Below, one piece after another: positions 16,246 to 60,775 of a stretch of 64,000 nt of DNA. The position numbers and the translations under genes are program-made. Origin of the DNA: Hymenobacter sp. BRD67 (GTDB taxonomy: Bacteria > Bacteroidota > Bacteroidia > Cytophagales > Hymenobacteraceae); NCBI RefSeq assembly GCF_013256425.1, contig NZ_CP053904.1:2418001-2482000 (forward strand), written 5' to 3'. The notes under the pieces are model-generated. The model worked only from the letters and a program-made list of their open reading frames with translations. It was not told the DNA's origin and ran no database searches. Positions within the stretch are counted from its first letter, which is position 1, and each line of letters starts with the position of its first letter.

Positions 16246-18933
16246 CTAAAAAGGCGGCTCCTCGCCAAAGCTATTGCTTTTGGGGAACGGCACCGGCGAG
16301 GGCGGCGCGTCGTTCATGCGCGAGCCCAGGCGAATGGTATTCGGCGCGAAGCCGCCACCCGGCGCGGGGCCACCGGCCGGCTCCGAGTCGAAATTACTGG
16401 TTGGGAAGGAGTTGGACGAAAAAGCCGGCGCGCCGCCGAAACCGCCCGCATCGCCACCGCCGTCGAAGCCGTCGAGGTCGGCAAACTTGGTGAAGCGGCC
16501 GATAAACTTGAGCTGCACCGTTTCGAGCGAGCCGTTGCGGTGCTTGGCAATGATAACCTCGCCCATACCCTGGGTAGGGTTGCCCATCTCGTCTTCGGTA
16601 ATCTTATAGTATTCAGGCCGGTACAGGAAGATAACCATGTCGGCATCCTGCTCGATAGAGCCCGATTCGCGCAGGTCGCTGAGCTGGGGCTTCTTGTCGC
16701 CGCCGCGCGTTTCAACCGAGCGCGAGAGCTGCGACAGGGCAATAACAGGAATATTCAGCTCTTTTGCTATTCCCTTGAGCGCCCGCGAGATACTGGCAAT
16801 CTCCTGCTCGCGGTTGCCGCCCGGCCGGCCGGCTTCGCCGCCGCTCATCAGCTGGAGGTAGTCAATGATAATGAGCTGAATATCGTGCTGCGACTTGAGG
16901 CGGCGGCACTTGGCGCGCAGCTCGCGGATGCTGAGCGCGGGCGTATCGTCGATAAAAATCGGGGCCGACGAGAGCGACGAAATCTTGTGGTTGAGCTGTG
17001 CCCACTCATAGTCGGCCAGGTTGCCTTTCTTAATTTTTTCCGAATCCAGCTCCGCCTCGGCCGAAATCAGACGATTGACCAGCTGCAGCGACGACATTTC
17101 AAGCGAGAAAATGGCGACCGGCTTCTTGAAATCGACCGCCGCGTTGCGCATGGCCGATACCACAAACGCTGTATTGTGCGTCACGGTGCAGTCGGCCAGC
17201 AAAAACAGGTGATTACCGTCAATCTCGAAGCCGTAGTAATCGTCCTCTTTATCAAACTCGACCGAGATTCCGGTCATGCGCCAATCGACGCCGGAAGCCC
17301 AGGGATTCGCTTTTTTGCGCGCCACGCGCACCGGAATCTTATCTACATCGCCGTAGAAGCGCACACGCCATACCTCGCTCTCGTAGCCGATTTTGCTGAT
17401 GACGGCACGCTTTTTCGTCAGCGACGCGCGGAAGCCCAGCGAATCGCACAGGAATTTAATCTGGCAAGCTAATTCCTTGTTTTTCTGGGTAATCTCGTAG
17501 CCATTGCTCACCACGTTGAGGTGGCCGTCGGAGTCGATAAGGCCCGCCAGCAGGCGCAGACGGTATTCGGTCGAGTTGACCAGGTAAGCCTGCGGAATGT
17601 GCTTGTTATTGAGCACGCCCAGCTGGCACAGCTCGTTCTGCACCGAGTACTCAGCCAGGCTCCCACCCTGCCGGCCGCGCGTAATGCCGTAGCTGTTGCA
17701 GCGGTCGGCCACTACGCCGGTGGTTACCTGCATGCCCAGCTCATCGGCGTACTGGTGGAGGTAGTCAATGATTTCGGCATCCTGGCCGGTGATGCGGCAA
17801 TTGCCGGCAGCCCCGTCACCCAGCCACACACCCAGAAAATAAGGGTCGAGCGGCACCGTCTGTTCGGCAAACTCCACGGCCACTTTGTAGCCTTTGTAGC
17901 TCGACTGAAACTTGGGGCCTTTTTTCAACCATTCACGAACCTCTATATTCAGCACGTCGCCGTGGCGGTGCGGCCCTTCGTTACGGCTGCGCTTGAGCGA
18001 GAGAATGTGGCTCTCATTTACGCGGTAGTCGTCGCCTTTATTCTGGCGCACCCAGTACATATTTTCGCGGCCACGGGCCAGGCTCAGCACCCGGCGCGGC
18101 GTCGAGTCGTCGCCCATCAGCAGGTCGCCTTCGCGCACGTCTTCCACGCGGCGTAGCGTACCATCATACATCACCACCTTGGTACCCAGCGCCAAGCATT
18201 TGCCCATGCCGGGGCGCGCCGCAATAATTACCAGGTCAGACGGTTGCCAGCCGCTCGTAACGCGGTCGAGCGCCGAGAAGCCAGTGGGTACACCCGTTAA
18301 GCCGTCTTTCTGGTGCTTCTTTTCTTCGAGCTCTTTAATGGCCTTCACCATCAAATCCTGCATCGAGTCAACGCCCTTGCGCATATTGTCTTCCGACACC
18401 TGGAAGATGTTCTTCTCCGTCGCGTCGAGCAGCTCAAATACGTCGGTGGTTTCCTCGTAGGCGTCGCGCAGAATGTCGGTGGCGGTGCGAATCAGCTCGC
18501 GCTTGATGGCCGCTTCCAGAATCACGCGGGCGTGGGCCTCAATGTTAGCGGCCGAGTTGATGTGCATGGTGAGGCCGGCCACGTAGCCGACCCCGCCGGC
18601 GGCTTCCAGCTCGCCCATCTCGCGCAGCTCCTGCACCACGGTGAGCTGGTCGATGGGCTCCGACTTATCAAATAAGTTGCTGATAGCCTTATAAATGCGT
18701 TGATGGCCGTCTTTGTAAAAGCTGTGCGCTTTCAGGATATCGACTACCGTAGTAAGGGCATCTTTCTCCAGCATGAGGGCTCCGAGCACGGCCGCCTCCA
18801 TTTCGAGGCGCTGGGGCGGCAGCTTGCCGGTGGGCGACATGGGCACGGGCTGCCGGCCTCCGCGTACGCCCTGAAAGGCGGCCGCGGCGCGGGCGGCAGA
18901 TTGCTTGAGGCGGTCGTCCATACGGTCGTTCAT
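16246..18933 (-). CDS. dnaB: replicative DNA helicase DnaB with intein
   Basis: The 895-residue precursor is a 553-residue DnaB interrupted by a 342-residue intein. The extein has the N-terminal primase-binding domain (LPPQRLEMEAAVLGALMLE near residue 38). The RecA-like ATPase follows, with Walker A split as ARPGMGK/TAFV by the intein after Lys245, the Walker B strand IQLIIIDYLQLM, and the DnaB motif LSQLSRSVE. The C-terminal tail of about 75 residues is rich in G, P and F (GGFGGAPAF ... EEPPF), common in Bacteroidetes DnaB but without known fold. DnaB unwinds the replication fork as a hexamer; without protein splicing its ATP site would be broken. The frame is intact throughout. It is divergent from mpl. 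Confidence 0.96.
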   Translation of the reverse strand: MNDRMDDRLKQSAARAAAAFQGVRGGRQPVPMSPTGKLPPQRLEMEAAVLGALMLEKDALTTVVDILKAHSFYKDGHQRIYKAISNLFDKSEPIDQLTVVQELREMGELEAAGGVGYVAGLTMHINSAANIEAHARVILEAAIKRELIRTATDILRDAYEETTDVFELLDATEKNIFQVSEDNMRKGVDSMQDLMVKAIKELEEKKHQKDGLTGVPTGFSALDRVTSGWQPSDLVIIAARPGMGKCLALGTKVVMYDGTLRRVEDVREGDLLMGDDSTPRRVLSLARGRENMYWVRQNKGDDYRVNESHILSLKRSRNEGPHRHGDVLNIEVREWLKKGPKFQSSYKGYKVAVEFAEQTVPLDPYFLGVWLGDGAAGNCRITGQDAEIIDYLHQYADELGMQVTTGVVADRCNSYGITRGRQGGSLAEYSVQNELCQLGVLNNKHIPQAYLVNSTEYRLRLLAGLIDSDGHLNVVSNGYEITQKNKELACQIKFLCDSLGFRASLTKKRAVISKIGYESEVWRVRFYGDVDKIPVRVARKKANPWASGVDWRMTGISVEFDKEDDYYGFEIDGNHLFLLADCTVTHNTAFVVSAMRNAAVDFKKPVAIFSLEMSSLQLVNRLISAEAELDSEKIKKGNLADYEWAQLNHKISSLSSAPIFIDDTPALSIRELRAKCRRLKSQHDIQLIIIDYLQLMSGGEAGRPGGNREQEIASISRALKGIAKELNIPVIALSQLSRSVETRGGDKKPQLSDLRESGSIEQDADMVIFLYRPEYYKITEDEMGNPTQGMGEVIIAKHRNGSLETVQLKFIGRFTKFADLDGFDGGGDAGGFGGAPAFSSNSFPTSNFDSEPAGGPAPGGGFAPNTIRLGSRMNDAPPSPVPFPKSNSFGEEPPF
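17173..18198 (-). other. DnaB intein with LAGLIDADG homing endonuclease
   Basis: The intein spans precursor residues 246-587. It begins with Cys1 (CLALGTKVVMYDG, block A), has VNESHILSL as block B, and ends with LLADCTVTHN, giving the penultimate His and final Asn. The next extein residue is Thr, which acts as the +1 nucleophile. Two LAGLIDADG helices are present: LGVWLGDG at intein residues 122-129 and LLAGLIDSDG at 216-225, each ending in the catalytic Asp. Both splicing and endonuclease parts therefore look complete. It sits exactly in the P-loop between Lys and Thr, a known favoured site in DnaB. Confidence 0.95.
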
Positions 18934-51604: not shown

Positions 51605-52210
51605 ATGAAAACCTATGTCGCTGCTGCTTTACTGCTTCTCTGCTTTTTCACAAGGGCTTATTCACAGCCGAAGCAGTGTTATTCTTACGATTACTTAAAA
51701 GCCGAAAAAGCAATATGGACTTACCTGCTGCGAAAAGACAATTTCGAAATTTTTTCAGATGATTTGTCTGGTCGCGAGGTATTCAATGACAAGCAAGAGC
51801 TATATCGCAAAGGCACAGTTATTCCAATTCCCGTTCTACGCTTCGAACCCAGCAGCATAGCAAATGGCGAAAACTTGCAGCTCAACAGTCTTTTTACAAC
51901 TGACCATTCGCATTTCATTGCCTTTTTAATGAATCGAAAAGAGTTGGCAAATATTATCGTATCCTCTCCACAGTACCCTAACTCTAAGCGCATCGAGAGT
52001 ATGGGAGCAACTGACCCAGAGACAGCAACTATAGTCTACGACCTTTTTAAAAACAAGAAAATTTGCTTTTTCTATGATGCCCTGCGTTTCCGTTACGCAT
52101 ACTTTGAGAATAATAATTACATCTACTACGATATAGAAAAAAGGGCGATGATTACACTAAGTGCGAGCGACTACGTAGCCGATTATAAAAGATATTTTAA
52201 CCTCAAATAA
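51605..52210 (+). CDS. exported protein of unknown function, low-GC insert
   Basis: The 201-residue protein has a signal peptide (MKTYVAAALLLLCFFTRAYS) and a Tyr/Phe/Asn-rich body (ELYRKGTVIPIPVLRFEPSS, FYDALRFRYAYFENNNYIYYDIEKR). I recognise no domain. Its codon use is much richer in A and T (gat, aaa, aat, tat) than argC or argD on either side. It sits between two arginine genes with no relation to them, so it was probably inserted. Confidence 0.75.
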   Translation: MKTYVAAALLLLCFFTRAYSQPKQCYSYDYLKAEKAIWTYLLRKDNFEIFSDDLSGREVFNDKQELYRKGTVIPIPVLRFEPSSIANGENLQLNSLFTTDHSHFIAFLMNRKELANIIVSSPQYPNSKRIESMGATDPETATIVYDLFKNKKICFFYDALRFRYAYFENNNYIYYDIEKRAMITLSASDYVADYKRYFNLK

Positions 52211-52225
52211 TCTAGCTAACAAACC

Positions 52226-53388
52226 ATGAACCTCTTCGACGTTTATCCGCTCGTAAACATCACGCCGGTGCGGGCGCTCGGCGCGACGCTTTGGGACGAG
52301 AACGGCCAGCAGTATCTGGATTTTTACGGCGGCCACGCCGTGATTTCCATCGGCCATAGCCACCCGCACTACGTACAGCGCGTGCAGGAGCAGGTGGCCA
52401 AAATCGGCTTCTACTCCAACTCGGTGAAAATCCCAATTCAGCAGGAGCTGGCCGCGAAGCTGGGCAACTTGTCGGGCTACCCCGACTACACGCTGTTTTT
52501 GTGCAACTCGGGGCCGAGGCCAATGAGAATGCGCTGAAACTGGCGTCGTTTCACACCGGCAAAAACCACGTCATTGCGTTCAAAGGCGCGTTTCACGGCC
52601 GCACCTCGGGCGCGGTAGCCGCCACCGACAACCCCAAAATCGTGGCGCCCTTCAACGCGGGCCACGGCGTGAGCTTCGTACCCTACGACCTCGCGGCCGT
52701 GGCGCAGGTGATGCAGGCGCAGCCAGTGTGCGCCTGCATTATCGAGCCGATTCAGGGCGTGGGCGGCGTGGTGCTGCCGACCGACGAGTTTTTGCAGGGA
52801 CTGTCGGCGCTGTGCGCACAGCACGGCGTGGTGCTGATTGCCGACGAGGTGCAGAGCGGCTACGGCCGCAGCGGCGAGTTTTTTGCGCACCAGCATGCGG
52901 GCATTCAGCCGGGCATCATCACCACGGCTAAGGGCATGGGCAACGGCTTCCCCATTGGCGGCGTGCTGATTTCGCCGGAGTTTAAGGCGTCGTATGGCTT
53001 GCTGGGCACCACGTTTGGCGGCAACCATCTGGCTTGCGCGGCGGGCCTGGCGGTGCTCGAAGTATTAGAGCAGGAAAACCTGGTGGCGCACGCGGCCGAG
53101 CTGGGCGCATACATCATGCAGGAGCTGCGCACCCACAGCCAGGCCACGGTAGTGCGCGGGCGCGGGCTGATGATAGGCGTGAAGTACGACTTCCCCATCA
53201 AAGAAATCCGCGATAAGCTGCTATTCGAGCATCACATCTTCGTAGGCAACGCCAGCGACCCGAACGTGCTGCGCTTATTGCCGCCGCTGAACATCACCAA
53301 GGCCGAAGCTGACCTATTTTTGCAGGCGCTTTACGCACTGGAATCGGCTAAGGTGCCGGTTGATACCACAGTAGTAGAGCAGGATTAA
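52226..53388 (+). CDS. argD: N-acylornithine aminotransferase (one frameshift)
   Basis: Repaired, this is a 387-residue PLP enzyme of class III. It opens MNLFDVYPLVNITPVRALGATLWDENGQQYLDFYGGHAVISIGHSHP and has LFLCNSGAEANENALKLA (PLP phosphate site). The aspartate is in VVLIADEVQSGYGRSG, the PLP lysine in ITTAKGMGNGFPIGG near residue 235, and TTFGGNHLAC follows. It makes N-acylornithine from the semialdehyde with glutamate. The frame breaks near 52511 (aactcggggccgag; one more G restores NSGAEANEN). As an essential biosynthetic gene in an otherwise whole cluster, a sequence error is far likelier than loss. Confidence 0.92.
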
Positions 53389-53404
53389 GACCCATCTATC
53401 ATGC

Positions 53405-53475
53405 TGAGCTTGCGAAGCATCTTACTGCGCCAGAACAAGTTGTTCGAGCCTTAGGTAAGATATTTCGCAAGCTCA
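53405..53475. repeat. imperfect 21-bp-arm inverted repeat (REP/MITE-like)
   Basis: The arm tgagcttgcgaagcatctt (53405-) and gtaagatatttcgcaagctca (53455-53475) are reverse complements with two mismatches. The atgctgagcttgcgaagcatct wording recalls a dispersed intergenic element of Hymenobacter-type genomes, and a half copy occurs at 54669-54700. It lies 80 bp upstream of carA. Confidence 0.6.
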
Positions 53476-53554
53476 ACGTGTGCAAAAGCCTTTGTGAATT
53501 AATCAATTAGCGACCAACGGAGCACTCCTCCACTTTACACATAACTCAACAAGC

Positions 53555-54651
53555 GTGGAAAATACGAAGCCGGTAAAACTGGTATTAGCCGATGGCACTG
53601 AGCTGGAGGGCAAGTCGTTTGGGGCCTACACGGCGTCGGCAGGCGAGGTTGTGTTCAGCACGGCCATGACGGGCTACCCCGAAAACTTAACAGACCCCTC
53701 CTTCCGGGCCAGATTCTGGTGCTGACCTACCCGATGGTGGGCAACTACGGCGTGCCGATGGAGCAGATTGAGCAGGATATTTCGAGCGCCCTCGAATCGA
53801 GCCAGGTGCATATTTCGGGCCTCGTAGTATCCTATTATTCGGAAGAATACAACCACTGGAACGCCTCGCAAAGCCTGAGCGCGTGGCTGGCCGCCCACAA
53901 TATTCCCGGCATCTACGATGTGGATACCCGGATGCTCACCAAGAAGCTGCGCGAAGAAGGCGCTATGCTCGGCAAAATCGTGACACCCGACCACGACGTG
54001 CCGCTGCACGACCCCAACGAGGACAACCTCGTGGCCCAGGTGAGCGTGGATGGCGTGAAGCGCTACGGCAGCGGTAAGCACAAAATCGTGCTGGTCGATT
54101 GCGGCGTGAAAAACAACATCATCCGCTGCCTGCTGGAGCGCGACGTGGAGCTAACCCGCGTGCCCTGGGACTACGATTTTAACCAGCTAGACTACGATGG
54201 CCTGTTCCTGAGCAATGGCCCCGGCGACCCCACGATGTGCGAGAAAACCATAGCCCACCTGCGCACCGCGCTGGCCGGCGACAAGCCAATTTTCGGCATC
54301 TGCCTGGGCATTCAGCTCATGGGCCTGGCCTGCGGCGGCAGCACCTACAAGCTGAAATACGGCCACCGCAGCCACAACCAGCCCGTGCGCCAGCTCGGCA
54401 CCAACAAGTGCTACGTAACCTCGCAAAACCACGGTTTTGCGGTGGATATGAAGAACTTGCCCGCCGACTGGGAAGGCTTGTTTGAGAACCTGAACGACGG
54501 CACCTGCGAGGGTATCCGCCACAAAACCAAGCCGTTCTTCGCGGTGCAGTTTCACCCCGAAGCCGCCGGCGGGCCGGTAGATACGGAGTATCTGTTTGAC
54601 GACTTTTTGGCTTCGGTTGAGAAGTACAAGGAGGCTCAGCCAGCAGAATAG
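53555..54651 (+). CDS. carA: carbamoyl-phosphate synthase small subunit (one frameshift)
   Basis: Repaired, this is a 365-residue glutamine amidotransferase subunit. The N-terminal CPSase domain has [17 protein letters not shown] and [33 protein letters not shown]. The class I amidotransferase half has [11 protein letters not shown], the nucleophile cysteine in [14 protein letters not shown] near residue 250, and the His-Glu pair in [11 protein letters not shown]. It feeds ammonia to CarB. The frame breaks near 53707 (ccttccgggcca; one more G restores FRGQIL). It starts at GTG 53555. carA and carB are split by the Imm50-like gene. Confidence 0.93.
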
Positions 54652-54668
54652 ACAGAAGCAAAAATCAA

Positions 54669-54700
54669 CGTCATTCTGAGCGCAACGAAGTATCTCTAAC
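54669..54700 (+). repeat. partial copy of a dispersed REP-like element
   Basis: The words cgtcattctgag and cgaagtatctct resemble half of the element at 53405-53475 (tgctgagcttgcgaagcatct) without a second arm. It sits directly before the Imm50-like gene. Confidence 0.4.
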
Positions 54701-54718
54701 GCATTGTCGAAAAGCGTA

Positions 54719-55504
54719 ATGACAGCACATGAGAATCCTGCAATTAGCCGCATAATCGACTACGAGGTAGTTGAGCAGCATTTCGGTTATTGGCCAGATT
54801 TTCATGACGCAGAAATAACTAAGGTAACTTTTGAATCTCACCCTACTGGGCGTTACTCAGTTACCTTAGTTATTGCTGCTTTCGAAATGACGAATAAGCT
54901 TGATAAACAAGGCTATTACAAGTTAATCAAGCACTGCAACGTCGAGCTTCAATTCATCGGTATTCAAGAGCTAAAGTTCAACGGCTTCGACCACCAAAAT
55001 GTCATTTTTGATTTAGCGTTTAAAGAGAGCGATAGCTATATCAAATGCACCTTAGACTCGTCCAATGGATTAGAATCTTTTGTGGTAGTTGCTGAAGAGG
55101 TGTTTGTTTTGAGCTTAGTGCCAACCGAACCCATTCCTAGGGAGCCCCTTATTGACACTAGTTCAGTGGACATGTTGGATGCCAAAAACATATTCATCGC
55201 AAGCGAGCACTTGCTACGCAATTTCGATTGGTCTGATTGGATTTATGTCGGCTTGAATCATGAACAAGCTAGTGAATACAAAGCAGATATGGTAGCAGAA
55301 TACGCTAACAGTCTCTTTGATGAAACAGAGGTTTATCTTGTCATAGGTCGCCACGATTCACACTTAACGACATTGAGCGAAGCACTAGGACAAGTGAGCA
55401 CTCTTCTGAAAAGCATGGAAGTGCTTATATGCAACAAAGAATTTTCTAAGGCCATGCGCTTTAGAATGGTTGGTGTCATGTCTTATGGACAGAAACGCAA
55501 TTAA
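54719..55504 (+). CDS. Imm50-like immunity protein between carA and carB
   Basis: The 261-residue protein has an N-terminal domain of the Imm50 type: the helix EQHFGYWPDFHDAEITKV and then strands with SVTLVIAAFEMTNK and VELQFIGIQEL. FHDAE is the family's recurring phrase. The last 100 residues (WSDWIYVGLNHEQASEYKADMVAEYANSL...VYLVIGRHDSH) look like a second domain I cannot name. Its low GC contrasts with carA and carB. Imm50 proteins neutralise contact-dependent or polymorphic toxins, but no toxin gene lies nearby, so it would be an orphan. I chose the ATG at 54719. Confidence 0.6.
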   Translation: MTAHENPAISRIIDYEVVEQHFGYWPDFHDAEITKVTFESHPTGRYSVTLVIAAFEMTNKLDKQGYYKLIKHCNVELQFIGIQELKFNGFDHQNVIFDLAFKESDSYIKCTLDSSNGLESFVVVAEEVFVLSLVPTEPIPREPLIDTSSVDMLDAKNIFIASEHLLRNFDWSDWIYVGLNHEQASEYKADMVAEYANSLFDETEVYLVIGRHDSHLTTLSEALGQVSTLLKSMEVLICNKEFSKAMRFRMVGVMSYGQKRN

Positions 55505-55549
55505 TTTTCACATTCGCTTCCTTCTCACTTAGAAGGCTTTAAGCAACCA

Positions 55550-58500
55550 ATGAAAGACATCAAGAAAGTACTGGTTCTCGGCTCGGGCGCTCTGAAAATC
55601 GGCGAGGCGGGCGAATTTGATTATTCCGGTTCGCAGGCGCTGAAGGCGCTGAAGGAAGAAGGCATTACGACCATCCTGATTAATCCCAATATTGCCACCG
55701 TGCAGACGTCGGACAATATTGCCGACGATGTATACTTTCTGCCCGTCACGCCGTATTTCGTCGAGGAGGTAATTAAGAAGGAAAAACCCGACGGCATTCT
55801 GGTGGCGTTTGGGGGCAAACGGCGCTGAACTGCGCGGTGCAGCTCTACCGGAATAATATTTTCGAGAAGTACAACGTGCGCGTGCTCGGCACGCCGGTGC
55901 AGTCGATTATCGACACCGAGGATCGGGATATTTTCATTGACAAGCTCAATGAAATCGACGTCAAAACGGCCCGTAGTCGGGCCGTTACCACGATGGACGA
56001 CGCCATCGCGGCGGGCCTGGAAATCGGCTTTCCGCTGATTATTCGGGCGGCGTTTGCGCTGGGTGGCCTGGGCAGCGGCTTTGCCGATAACGAGGACGAG
56101 CTGCGGGCACTGGCCGAGCGGGCGTTTGCGACTTCGAGCCAGATTCTGGTGGAAGAATCGCTGAAGGGCTGGAAGGAAGTGGAGTACGAAGTGGTGCGCG
56201 ACTGCTATGATAACTGCATCACAGTCTGCAACATGGAGAACTTCGACCCCATCGGCATCCACACCGGGGAGAGCATCGTGGTGGCCCCGTCGCAGACGCT
56301 CAGCAACCGCGAGTACCACAAGCTGCGCCAGATTGGCATCAAGACTATTCGGCACCTGGGCATCGTGGGCGAGTGCAACATTCAGTACGCGCTCGACCCG
56401 GTTTCGGAAGATTACCGCGTGATTGAGGTGAACGCGCGTTTATCGCGCTCGTCGGCGCTGGCCTCAAAAGCCACGGGCTACCCGCTGGCTTTTGTGGCGG
56501 CTAAGCTGGCGCTGGGCTACGGGCTGTTTGAGGTGAAAAACAGCGTGACGCAGACGACTTCGGCGCTGTTTGAGCCGGCGCTCGACTACGTGGTGGTGAA
56601 GCTGCCGCGCTGGGACCTGGGCAAGTTTGACGGCGTGACCCGGCAGATTGGTTCCAGCATGAAGAGCGTGGGTGAAGTGATGGCCATCGGCCGCTCGTTT
56701 GAGGAAGCCATTCAGAAGGGCCTGCGGATGCTGGACACCGGCCGCCGCGGCTTCGTGGCCAACCGGCCCGAGGCGCCCGTGACCAATGCTCAGGTAGACA
56801 AGCTGCTGAGCGACCCGAATGAGGAGCGTATTTTCGCTATCAACCAGGCGTTTGAGCTAGGCTACACGGTGCAGCAAATCCATGATTTGACAAAAATCGA
56901 CCTGTGGTTTTTGCAGCGCCTGAGCACCATTTTTGAAATGGGCCAGCGCCTCCTACCCCTCGGCGATGGCACCGCGCCCGAGAAGGCGCTACTGGCCGAA
57001 GCCAAGAAGCTGGGCTTCTCGGACATGCAGCTGGCCGCCAAATTCTACGGCGAAAATAACTTGCGCACCAGTGAGCTGCGCGTACGCAAGCGCCGCAAGG
57101 AACTGGGTATTTTGCCGGTGGTGAAGCAGATTGACACCCTGGCGGCGGAGTTTCCGGCCAAGACCAACTACCTCTACCTCACCTACCACGGCACCGAAAA
57201 CGATTTGGCACCCGAAACTGAGAAGTCGGTAGCTGTGCTGGGCTCGGGCGTGTACCGCATCGGCAGCAGCGTGGAGTTTGACTGGTGCGGCGTGAACGCC
57301 ATCCAGACCGCCGCCGCCGAGGGCTACAAGACCATCGTTATCAACTACAACCCCGAAACCGTTTCGACCGACTACGACGTGAGCGACCGGTTGTATTTCG
57401 AGGAACTGTCGTTTGAGCGGGTGATGGATATCCTGGATTTTGAGCAGCCGGGCGGGGTCATTCTCTCCACGGGCGGCCAGATTCCGAACAACCTCGCCAT
57501 GCGCCTGCACCAGGAAAACGTGCCGGTGCTGGGCACCTCGCCCGAGCGCATCGACGAGGCCGAAAACCGCCACAAGTTCTCGTCGATTATGGACGAGCTG
57601 GGCATTTCGCAGCCGCGCTGGAGCGAGCTTTCGACGCTGGAAGGCGTGTTTGACTTCGTGGGTAAGGTCGGTTTCCCGGTGCTCATCCGGCCGAGCTACG
57701 TGCTGTCGGGCGCGGCCATGAACGTGGTTTCCAACAACTACGAGCTGGAAACTTTCCTGAAGCTTGCCAAGGAAGTGAGCACCGAATACCCGTAGTGGTG
57801 TCGGAGTTCATCGAGGAAGCCAAGGAAATCGAGCTGGACGCGGTAGCCGACCACGGCGAAATCGTGAGCTACGCCATCTCGGAGCACGTCGAGTTTGCAG
57901 GCGTGCACTCGGGCGACGCCACCATGTACTACCCGCCCAGAAGGTGTACGTGGAGACGGTGCGTCGCCTCAAGGCCATTGCCGAGAAAATCGCCAAGCGC
58001 TACGAAATCAGCGGGCCATTCAACATCCAGTTTCTGGGTAAAAACAACGACCTGAAGGTAATTGAGTGTAATATCCGCGCCTCGCGCAGCTTCCCTTTCG
58101 TGTCGAAAGTATCAGGCAATAACCTGATTACCAAGGCTACGAAAATACTACTTGGCGTGCCCGTAGACCGCGACGCCAGCGAGCTGGTCTACGATGCCAA
58201 CTTTGTGGGCGTCAAGGCTTCGCAGTTCTCCTTCACCCGCCTGGCCGGCGCCGACCCGGTGCTGACCGTGGATATGTCCTCGACCGGCGAGGTCGGCTGC
58301 CTGGGCGATACCGCCGACGAGGCCCTGCTCAAGTCGATGCTGTCGGTAGGCTACCGCATCCCGCAAAAGTCGGTGCTGATTTCGGGCGGTCCCATCAATT
58401 CGAAAGTGACGCTGCTACCCGTGGCGCAGTTGCTGGCCGAGCGCGGCTTCACGCTCTACGCCACGGAGGGCACGCATAAATTCTTCGCCGACATGGGGCT

Positions 58501-58774
58501 AGCCTCCACCCTCGTTCACTGGCCCGACAGCCAGCAGCAGCCCAACGTGCTCGACTACCTGCGGAACAAGGAAATCGAAATGGTCATCAACATCCCCAAA
58601 AACCTCACGAAAGGCGAGTTGGATAATGACTACAAGATTCGCCGCACGGCCGTCGATTTCAGCATTCCGCTGCTGACGAATGCACGGCTGGCGAGCGCGT
58701 TTATCACCGCGTTCTGCGAGCTGGAAATGAGCGACTTGAAGATTAAGAGCTGGAACGAGTATAAGGGTCAGTAG
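55550..58774 (+). CDS. carB: carbamoyl-phosphate synthase large subunit (three frameshifts)
   Basis: Repaired, this is 1075 residues, the full length of CarB. It has two ATP-grasp synthetase halves: [29 protein letters not shown] at residue 5 and [25 protein letters not shown] near 560. Each is followed by grasp motifs ([38 protein letters not shown]). The C-terminal MGS-like allosteric domain ([29 protein letters not shown]) follows. It makes carbamoyl phosphate for arginine and pyrimidines. Frames break near 55815 (run of five G), 57793 (tacccgtag) and 57938 (ccgcccagaag); one G or C each restores FGGQTALNC, YPVVVSEF and [12 protein letters not shown]. Its last 137 bp recur at 59658-59794, beyond higBA. 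Confidence 0.95.
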
Positions 58775-58775
58775 T
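58639..58775 (+). repeat. carB 3' end, copy 1 of a 137-bp direct repeat
   Basis: This segment, from codon Arg (cgccgcacggcc) to just past the stop codon, is the live carB end. It matches 59658-59794 with only four substitutions and no gaps, so the pair brackets the higBA module. Confidence 0.95.
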
Positions 58776-58801
58776 AGTAGACAATGAATTGACTACCGGC
58801 A

Positions 58802-58842
58802 AGCCCGGAATTCGCAAAATGCGAACTCCGGGCTTATCTTTG
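58802..58842 (+). promoter_or_regulatory. higBA promoter with overlapping inverted repeat
   Basis: TATCTTTG at 58835-58842 is an exact -7 box ending 11 bp before the higB ATG. Directly before it, agcccgga-a-ttcgc (58802-58815) and gcgaa-c-tccgggct (58821-58834) form a 14-base-armed inverted repeat with one mismatch around aaaat. It covers the -33 region. It could be the HigA operator, the carB terminator, or both. Confidence 0.6.
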
Positions 58843-58853
58843 GTGTATCCGCT

Positions 58854-59183
58854 ATGAAAGTTCACCTTATAAAACACCAGACAGTGGAAGATTACGCGGC
58901 TCACCACGCTCGCATTCGCTCCTTTGCCTTGTGGCTAACGGCAGTAAAATATGCAGAGTGGAACACGTCAGCAGACATCCAGCAAACCTTTGGCTCGGCC
59001 GACTTACTGGGCAACGGCAGCAGCCGCGTCGTGTTCGACATCGGCGGCAACCACCACCGGCTTATTGCCCGCTACGTATTTGGCAAGCAGCAAGTCCACC
59101 TGTTTGTATGCTGGGTAGGTACCCACGCCGAGTACGATAAGCTTTGCGCCAAAGGTGAGCAGTACACCGTCAATCTATACTAA
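58854..59183 (+). CDS. higB: HigB-family toxin (mRNA interferase)
   Basis: The 109-residue protein opens MKVHLIKHQTVEDYAAHHARIRSF and has the HigB phrases WNTSADIQQTFGSADLLGNGSSRVVFDIGGNHHRLIARY and FVCWVGTHAEYDKLCAK. The order (IGGNHHRLI then WVGTHAEYD) is that of the RelE-like HigB fold, with the terminal Tyr-Asp and His residues that cut mRNA on ribosomes. The toxin gene comes first, as usual for higBA, and is 8 bp before the antitoxin gene. Confidence 0.92.
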   Translation: MKVHLIKHQTVEDYAAHHARIRSFALWLTAVKYAEWNTSADIQQTFGSADLLGNGSSRVVFDIGGNHHRLIARYVFGKQQVHLFVCWVGTHAEYDKLCAKGEQYTVNLY

Positions 59184-59191
59184 GCTCCGCC

Positions 59192-59640
59192 ATGAAAATC
59201 CTGCCCTACACCCTTATCAAAACCGAGCAACAGTACCAACACTACTGCCGCGAACTGGAGGCCCTGCTCACCGAAGCCCCCACGGCCGCCGCGCAAGATG
59301 AGATAGACTTGCTCACGCTTCTCATCGAAACATGGGACGAAGCGCATTCCCACGTGCCGGCCGCCGACCCCATCGACCTGCTCCGTTCGCTCATGGCCGG
59401 GCAGCAATTGCAGGCTAAGGACCTGGCCAGCATCCTGGAAATCGGGCGGGGCACAGTTTCCGACCTGCTGAACCGCCGTCGGGTATGTCGAAAGCAGTTA
59501 TTCGGCGCTTAGCCAGTTACTTCCATGTATCGCAGGAAGCCTTCAATCGGCCCTACGAATTAGCGGTAACTGCCAAGCCGCTGCCTCGCAACGCAAAAGT
59601 TGTGCATCAGCGGCAGCAACCAGAAGCTATAGCTGCCTAG
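59192..59640 (+). CDS. higA: HigA-family antitoxin with XRE domain (one frameshift)
   Basis: Repaired, this is a 149-residue antitoxin. The N-terminal part (MKILPYTLIKTEQQYQHYCREL) binds toxin, and a C-terminal helix-turn-helix begins at LLRSLMAGQQLQAKDLASILEIGRGTVSDLLNRRRGMSKAVIRRLASYFHVSQEAF. The frame breaks near 59488 (cgccgtcgggtatg; one more G gives NRRRGMSKAVIRRLA). It neutralises HigB and represses the operon through the upstream inverted repeat (family knowledge). A carB end copy starts 17 bp after its stop. Confidence 0.9.
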
Positions 59641-59657
59641 CTACCTAGCTGTTAAAC

Positions 59658-59794
59658 TCGCCGCACGGCCGTCGATTTCAGCATCCCGCTGCTGACGAAT
59701 GCGCGGCTGGCAAGCGCGTTTATCACCGCGTTCTGCGAGCTGGAAATGAGCGACTTGAAGATTGAGAGCTGGAACGAGTATAAGGGTCAGTAGT
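59658..59794 (+). repeat. carB 3' end, copy 2 of a 137-bp direct repeat
   Basis: This copy holds the last 45 codons of carB and its stop codon, but no start or upstream sequence, so it is a non-coding remnant. Four substitutions separate it from copy 1; one changes Lys to Glu (KIKSW to KIESW). Confidence 0.95.
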
Positions 59795-60044: not shown

Positions 60045-60649
60045 TTACACTAGGCGGCGCAATGGCCGCAAATCCAGCGAGAAGCCGGGCAAGGCGGGCT
60101 CGGCGCTGAGCGACTGTTCGAAGCTGCTGATTTCTTCGGGCTCCTGGCCGGCGCGGTAGAGGGTGGCGGTTTCGGTGCTGGGGTCGAGTAGGAAGCCGAC
60201 TTGCACGCCGTTGGCCAGGTAGATTTCCATTTTGTGGCGCAGGGGGCTAGCCCATCGGAGGGCGAGCGGACTTCGACCACGAAGGTGGGGCACACGGGCG
60301 GAAAGCGCAGACGCTGAGCTTCGGGCAGAGCGTCGTAGGTGGCGCGGGGTACCCACGAGGCATCGGGCGAGCGCACCGAGCCATCGGGCATAGTGAAGCC
60401 GGCCGATGACTCAAAAGCGTAGCCGAGTTGGTGCTGGCGGTTCCAGAACCACAATTGGCCATATACTTCACCTGATTTGTGGCTGGATTCGGAACCGGCG
60501 GGGGGCATAAAGATGATTTCGTGGTCGGCGTTGCGCTCCAGGCGCAGGGTGGGGTTGTGCTGGCAGAGGTCGAAGAATTCTTCGTCCGTGAGCCGGGTTA
60601 GCTGCGGGCCGTGGATTGTTACCACATTATCGAGGTCGGCAAACGTCAT
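60045..60649 (-). CDS. Uma2-family nuclease-like protein (one frameshift)
   Basis: Repaired, this 201-residue protein (MTFADLDNVVTIHGPQLTRLTDEEFFDLC) has the PD-(D/E)XK-like Uma2 core: FMPPAGSESSHKSGEVYGQLWFW, MPDGSVRSPDASWVP (the conserved D), PTFVVEVRSPSD (the E-x-R/K pair) and EIYLANGVQVGFLLDPSTETA. The frame breaks near 60251 (a run of five C; a sixth gives GLAPLRHKMEIY). Uma2 genes occur widely without a proved role and may be remnants of nucleases tied to mobile DNA. It lies opposite in direction to the arginine genes, right behind higBA. Confidence 0.82.
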
Positions 60650-60775
60650 GGCTAAAGAATTGGCAAGCGGGTTAGCCAAATATACGGTCGGGGGCTTGGG
60701 TACGGCCTTATCTTCGCCGCTCCTTAAAAGTATGCGAGGGCCTTTGGCGGATAGTGCCGCTTTGGCGCTTTGCTT

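Follow-up and report, generated by a model that had tools for sequence, protein, structure and literature searches.

A two-domain Imm50 gene between carA and carB in Hymenobacter sp. BRD67: a likely orphan immunity gene in a variable operon gap

The locus and its reading frames

The window analysed here is a stretch of 64,000 nucleotides from Hymenobacter sp. BRD67 (contig NZ_CP053904.1, positions 2,418,001 to 2,482,000). It contains an arginine cluster, with argH, an ArgE/DapE-like deacylase gene and argB on the minus strand, and argG, argC, argD, carA, carB and the gene for N-acetylornithine carbamoyltransferase on the plus strand. The ORF caller was home-made and some of its ORFs are spurious, and part of the neighbour names were assigned by eye. 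Between carA (TIGR01368; the open part of its broken frame is 53719–54651, +) and carB (TIGR01369 and PRK05294; 55550–58774, +, frame broken in the assembly) there is an intact ORF on the plus strand, at 54719–55504, which encodes 261 residues and is annotated as a two-domain orphan immunity-type gene on the basis of the ORF call, Pfam and its relatives. Its GC content is 0.41; carA and the window as a whole both have 0.59. The mechanical ORF begins at a TTG at 54704, giving a frame of 266 residues; the start at ATG 54719 is the one that agrees with the intact two-domain relatives, which have 258–261 residues.

The sequence-only reading had described a low-GC, two-domain ORF with the phrase FHDAE at this position, and the ORF call, base composition and profile search bear out that description. 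FHDAE falls within a longer motif, F-G-x-x-P-x-F-H-D-A, which is also kept in alphaproteobacterial Imm50 proteins (30–32% identity, 13 rows).

The frames of argD, carA and carB are split in the assembly (window 52226–58774), and that of the Imm50 gene is unbroken. Given that sister genomes have long open frames here, the breaks look like small sequencing errors. The gene order itself is not an assembly artefact: carA, Imm50, C-terminal module and carB recur in the same order in four further loci (L033–L036) and in L159, a named Hymenobacter record. Other features of the window include a low-GC ORF of 201 residues between argC and argD (51605–52210, +), with no family above cut-off, a strong hairpin just before carB (55505–55552, z −3.24), within a stretch common to the sister genomes, and a DnaB helicase gene (16246–18933, −) split by an intein that carries a homing endonuclease domain of the LAGLIDADG type.

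The Imm50 domain

The Imm50 domain (PF15594) lies at 54764–55075 (+), corresponding to residues 21–124 of the frame that starts at 54704. The Pfam match scores 55.3 bits against a curated cut-off of 27.1 (E 8.9e-15), and no metabolic family was matched by the protein in Pfam or NCBIfam; the profile searches thus uphold the earlier assignment to Imm50 rather than to a metabolic family. The window's own genome has a second, weaker Imm50 match, interrupted by an internal stop (L002 1501–1716, 29.7 bits).

An AlphaFold model based on 42 aligned relatives gives a confident, mostly-β prediction for the N-terminal domain (residues 1–140, block mean pLDDT 75–97). Imm50 is listed as mostly β, with Tox-HHH and Ntox24 as partner toxins, in the part of Zhang et al. 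(2012, PMC3482391) that treats it, and the domain resembles that family both in this fold and in the extent of the profile match, which covers most of the domain. It differs from the typical member, as that part of the paper presents it, in that no toxin was found beside it, it is fused to a second module, and its gene stands within a metabolic operon.

Foldseek alone gave no match for the N-terminal domain at E 0.001 or better, the first being 5v77_A at E 0.008; the best 50 rows are mostly OB-fold proteins and do not include 8owu. On realignment two top rows emerged, both with Z 8.8 over 93 aligned residues, a value that is modest by the structure-comparison tool's own notes: 5v77_B, an uncharacterised Neisseria protein (rmsd 3.5), and 8owu_D (rmsd 2.8, 16% identity), with the next row at Z 4.5. 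According to its title, PDB entry 8owu is the polymorphic toxin PT7 with its cognate immunity protein PIM7. The likeness to this pair consists of the alignment of the N-domain model with PIM7; the differences are the low sequence identity, a sequence match that is not significant (as is the case for every PDB entry), and that no PT7-like toxin was seen here.

The C-terminal module

The remainder of the protein is a module of about 109 residues (55175–55501, +). It is found as a stand-alone protein of 109–121 residues in eight genomes of the genus, and in broken form in a ninth, and the intact stand-alone genes start at the methionine equivalent to window position 55175. Pfam gave no match for the module alone; divergent members add a single weak line, to DUF4783 (E 0.067), well under its cut-off, and NCBIfam likewise gives one weak line that falls far short. 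PADLOC matched neither the Imm50 gene nor the module. Searching the module by itself therefore agrees with the earlier view that the protein has a distinct C-terminal domain with no Pfam name. Judging from these relatives, the gene is a fusion of two modules that are elsewhere encoded separately.

The AlphaFold model from the 42 relatives is unreliable over this part. A second model, of the C-domain alone, was weak as well (mean pLDDT 52.8), and its structural rows, the best at Z 2.8, are not meaningful; for these reasons we claim no fold for it. Structure prediction, which had been proposed as a check, thus gave a confident, mostly-β model with a modest likeness to PIM7 for one half of the protein and an unreliable model for the other. 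Polyimmunity proteins are described in the relevant part of PMC3482391. By analogy with these, and from the stand-alone copies, which occupy similar sites to those of the Imm50 genes, it is suggested that the C-terminal module may be a second immunity domain.

Of 200 genomes sampled from the family, 22 have the module. In a class sample of 395 genomes it was found in G000 and, as a weak match inside a 723-residue frame, in one other genome, and all 14 named records that carry it are from Hymenobacter.

The carA–carB gap is variable across the genus

The gap between carA and carB is variable. In a first set of 92 clusters, 80 have at least 459 bp between the two genes, and the other 12 have 78–169 bp. 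A further 14 clusters comprise 11 with an insert and three without, so that overall 91 of 106 clusters contain an insert and the two genes are adjacent in 15. The expectation that carA and carB are nearly always adjacent therefore fails in this genus. Without 16 clusters, namely that of the window and those retrieved on account of a copy of Imm50 or of the C-module, an insert is present in 75 of 90. Clusters were counted when carA and carB lay in one fetched stretch, and several carA places are outside the count; of 99 stretches, one lacked carA and in six carB was unusable. Because the carB query was truncated, a fixed 290 bp was subtracted from each gap length.

As a control, trpB–trpA has no insert in any of the 30 loci measured (41 genomes searched). 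For hisC–hisB, 26 of 30 loci were measured: 12 gaps are under 200 bp, seven are 452–736 bp and seven are about 1.3 kb. A recurrent ORF of about 250 residues, with GC content 0.56–0.62, was noted in this gap (L180, L183, L186, L189, L192, L196). Within the arginine cluster, inserts of at least 400 bp occur in 29 of 87 loci between argC and argD, in 40 of 87 between argD and carA, and in none of 87 between argG and argC.

Sister species carry other genes at the same spot

Seven genomes (G010, G081, G058, G104, G027, G083 and G108) have a CarA 95–98% identical to that of the window, and none of them has an intact Imm50 gene of the window's type. The carA of G108 is on a contig fragment and is outside the gap comparison. 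In five of the others (G010, G081, G104, G027 and G083) DNA homology ends at 54630–54690 and restarts at 55501–55503, that is, at the stop codon of the Imm50 gene, leaving the segment 54691–55502 with no counterpart in these genomes. The flanks of the gap are 91–96% identical and the junctions are sharp and common, which would fit homologous recombination in the flanking genes; no exchange event was itself observed.

What fills the gap differs between sisters. In G010, G081, G104 and G027 there are other small ORFs together with a GIY-YIG-like ORF, bounded by inverted repeat copies, and in G083 an 82-residue ORF bounded by another palindrome. G058 has an Imm50 copy that is disrupted by stop codons and also by an insertion, whose two ORFs are probably the two IS630-transposase matches. 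In more distant species, with about 75% identity in CarA, this gap contains the two-domain gene of the window in a form that is 64–67% identical. Since the sister gaps differ and the distant species share the gene, it behaves like a long-lived allele at a site of changing content.

Distribution of the two modules and selection

Among 120 genomes of the genus, 48 match one or other module, the window's own included. There are 43 copies of the N-domain (one of them a weak match, in G079, E 0.008) and 16 of the C-domain. The modules are fused in six genomes including the window's own, and in a seventh as a broken copy. By position, the arg/car cluster holds 21 of the 43 N-domain and 14 of the 16 C-domain copies, a cluster that covers roughly 18 kb in genomes of some 5 Mb; the relatives are thus found beside car and arg genes, as the sequence-only reading had thought worth checking.

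Within this cluster the copies occupy carA–carB, argC–argD and carB–argF, and a further site about 3.1 kb past argB, the position of argH in the window. Elsewhere they are by hisC and hisB, in the paaJ–paaZ region, and between the dihydroorotase gene and purE–purK; the C-module alone stands before ureG. The copies mapped in arg/car clusters are co-directional with their neighbours, and at the other loci, where orientation was read by eye, one (L056) is opposite to them. In two stretches of 17–18 kb (L035 and L048) the carA–Imm50–carB unit is separate from the arg genes, and G007 has a second carA elsewhere, within its arg cluster.

A tree of 37 N-domains needs 13 changes for 10 site labels, where the minimum is nine. 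The largely site-wise grouping points to persistent site-specific lineages, with long residence and few jumps. Nei–Gojobori dN/dS is 0.06–0.24 in the 14 estimable of 16 chosen pairs, which come from several sites and include both modules. Synonymous sites are saturated in the two pairs that involve the gene of the window. The proteins of the relatives are therefore maintained by purifying selection. A phage or plasmid origin was considered and dropped, there being no phage matches, five weak plasmid matches to the N-domain and none to the C-domain.

Repeats at the edges of the inserts

The sister gaps provided a repeat motif, GTCATGCTGAGC, which was read from them before counting, and was then counted with up to two mismatches, along with a second palindrome. 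Of 45 Imm50 or C-module genes, 33 have the forward repeat 43–105 bp upstream, and none has it downstream in that orientation. An inverted copy lies downstream of 20 of the 45 and upstream of one, and 19 have repeats at both edges. The 45 exclude the broken L038 and L039, the C-domain of L066, the duplicate L124, and L237, L238, L240 and L241.

Of the 80 carA–carB inserts of the first set, 53 have the forward motif within 60 bp of the left end, 40 the inverted motif within 150 bp of the right end, and 31 both; the reverse arrangement occurs three times on the left and once on the right. The corresponding figures for 490 random 900-bp windows from the same loci are nine, 15 and one. The window has the left copy only (forward, 54669–54690, +), no inverted copy having been found downstream in it. 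A second, different palindrome, CCCCCGGCCCCCTCTCC, bounds other carA–carB inserts together with its inverse (L077, L038, L113, L122).

REP and REPIN elements, which are associated with RAYT transposases, are short interspersed repeats in inverted pairs. The repeats described here are likewise short, interspersed and paired in inverted orientation. They differ in that the pairs enclose genes and the single units do not form hairpins (z +1.46, +0.89 and +0.66 for three units), and for the latter reason they are not called REPs; a strict REP identity was rejected. A Y1_Tnp domain occurs in 41 of 61 genomes, counted per genome irrespective of surroundings.

Other occupants of the gap and the search for a toxin

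ORFs of at least 80 residues in the gaps number 396 and fall into 133 clusters, 83 of them with a single member; some are spurious antisense frames or the ends of flanking genes. From these clusters 83 low-GC ORFs were picked for Pfam, some antisense-looking ones being left out. Most matched no known family. Among the best 25 of 39 families there were three Imm50, two DUF7677, two SMI1_KNR4 (SUKH), and one each of Imm44, HigB and GIY-YIG; SUKH and Imm44 are, like Imm50, families of immunity proteins. One cluster comprises 19 GIY-YIG-type ORFs from carA–carB and carB–argF gaps, the type having been tested on one member. A GIY-YIG-type ORF of 96 residues stands beside the cargo in four sister gaps (L073–L076). 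It is absent from the insert of the window, whose gap holds the Imm50 ORF as its single ORF of at least 60 residues.

No polymorphic toxin was found among the window neighbours scanned or beside the Hymenobacter copies examined, and the genes directly next to the Imm50 gene are carA and carB. The earlier remark that there is no toxin in view holds to this extent, but not for toxins of every kind, as a HigB-type toxin gene follows carB. A search for the known partner toxin Tox-HNH-HHH found it in 0 of 120 genomes, but the positive controls gave no signal either. Of three plasmid relatives, two have no annotated toxin nearby. In the third, on a Paroceanicella plasmid (L260 4517–6113), the Imm50 gene has an Xre-type antitoxin gene on one side and a RES-domain gene on the other; the gene table is incomplete.

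In the window the 3' end of carB is directly duplicated over 137 bp, with 97% identity, and the two copies bracket the HigBA module (58854–59512; HigB by Pfam; the whole spans 58639–59794). This duplication is also present in G010 and G079, and was found in three of 89 loci with a carB-end match. Matches to higB/higA occur in three of 98 clusters (the window, G010 and G079), two of which have no Imm50 there. Between HigBA and the gene for the carbamoyltransferase there is a Uma2-family gene (60050–60679, −), which encodes a putative restriction endonuclease.

Interpretation

The Imm50 gene is not a one-off. It is one occupant of a gap that is variable throughout the genus, and the same modules are found in other metabolic operons. 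We propose that it is probably an orphan immunity gene, carried as the cargo of an exchangeable cassette in the operon gap between carA and carB. Protection against toxins is suggested by the profile match and the predicted fold. The Imm50 gene would be transcribed together with carAB; the N-domain would bind and block an incoming toxin, and the C-terminal module may block a second toxin or assist the N-domain. Cassettes might be exchanged by recombination in the conserved flanking genes. The gene would thus be kept ready by a cell that has no toxin of its own to go with it. Several results weigh against this reading: no polymorphic toxin was seen near the copies examined, the structural match to PIM7 is modest, most of the scanned gap ORFs belong to no immunity family, and the mainly site-wise grouping of the N-domains favours long residence over frequent jumps.

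The edge repeats, the 19 GIY-YIG-type ORFs and the many gap ORFs that match no known family could also be read as signs of hitchhiking, in which repeat-bounded cassettes spread selfishly or neutrally, perhaps aided by GIY-YIG, and their cargo confers no immunity. We think this rather unlikely in view of the purifying selection on both modules and of a profile and fold that are those of immunity proteins; moreover, the window's own insert has no GIY-YIG ORF. A different alternative, in which the protein serves as the antitoxin-like partner in an addiction or phage-defence unit and not as immunity against contact-delivered toxins, would fit the neighbours of the Paroceanicella gene and the HigBA module just past carB. 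It appears improbable, however, as there is no PADLOC match, and higB/higA is rare in these clusters, is mostly found where Imm50 is absent, and has an insertion signature of its own.

The concentration of both modules in the arg/car cluster might instead indicate that the protein regulates or assists arginine or carbamoyl-phosphate metabolism. This is very improbable: the same modules also stand near his, paa, pur and ure genes, the spot is taken by unrelated genes in sister species and is empty in 15 of 106 clusters, and there are no metabolic family matches. A functional link to arginine was dropped on this evidence.

Dedicated arrays and toxin islands are the main places where orphan immunity genes have been described. 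The minimal mobile element, reportedly defined by Saunders and Snyder in 2002, is a further point of comparison. In Neisseria, according to the part of PMC1538595 that describes these elements, related genomes have different whole genes at a place flanked by two conserved ones. The relatives of the window show this pattern too, with carA and carB as the conserved pair. The present case differs from those elements, as they are described there, in involving biosynthetic operons, comparison across species, inverted repeats and often a GIY-YIG ORF. The rAID systems of Bacteroidales (PMC12247911) are alike in having immunity genes with no toxin, in Bacteroidota. In the part of that paper concerned, rAID genes form arrays with a recombinase; here there are single genes in operon gaps, and the carA–carB gap of the window holds a single ORF. 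The N-domain, then, is a known one, Imm50 by profile; its arrangement works like that of minimal mobile elements, and its orphan character is like that of rAID genes.

The proposal of an orphan immunity gene as cassette cargo can be extended, tentatively and with more doubt than confidence, to a family-wide system. Across Hymenobacteraceae, repeat-bounded single-gene cassettes might settle in a small number of favoured gaps within biosynthetic operons, mostly in the direction of the operon, and rely on its transcription, immunity genes being one class of cargo. They might be moved or driven by GIY-YIG in cis or by a Y1 transposase in trans, in which case metabolic operons would serve as an exchangeable expression bank for defence genes.

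Keyword searches of one literature library returned no report of immunity genes between carA and carB or of such inserts in Hymenobacter. The findings carry a warning for annotation: in these bacteria, a place within an operon does not by itself point to a metabolic role. They also make several questions testable: how a defence gene is expressed inside a metabolic operon, how genes are exchanged in a gap with no recombinase, and which toxin Imm50 meets. Across this genus, immunity-type genes are one cargo class in the gaps of the arginine, histidine, phenylacetate, purine and urease clusters, at sites that differ in content between closely related species.
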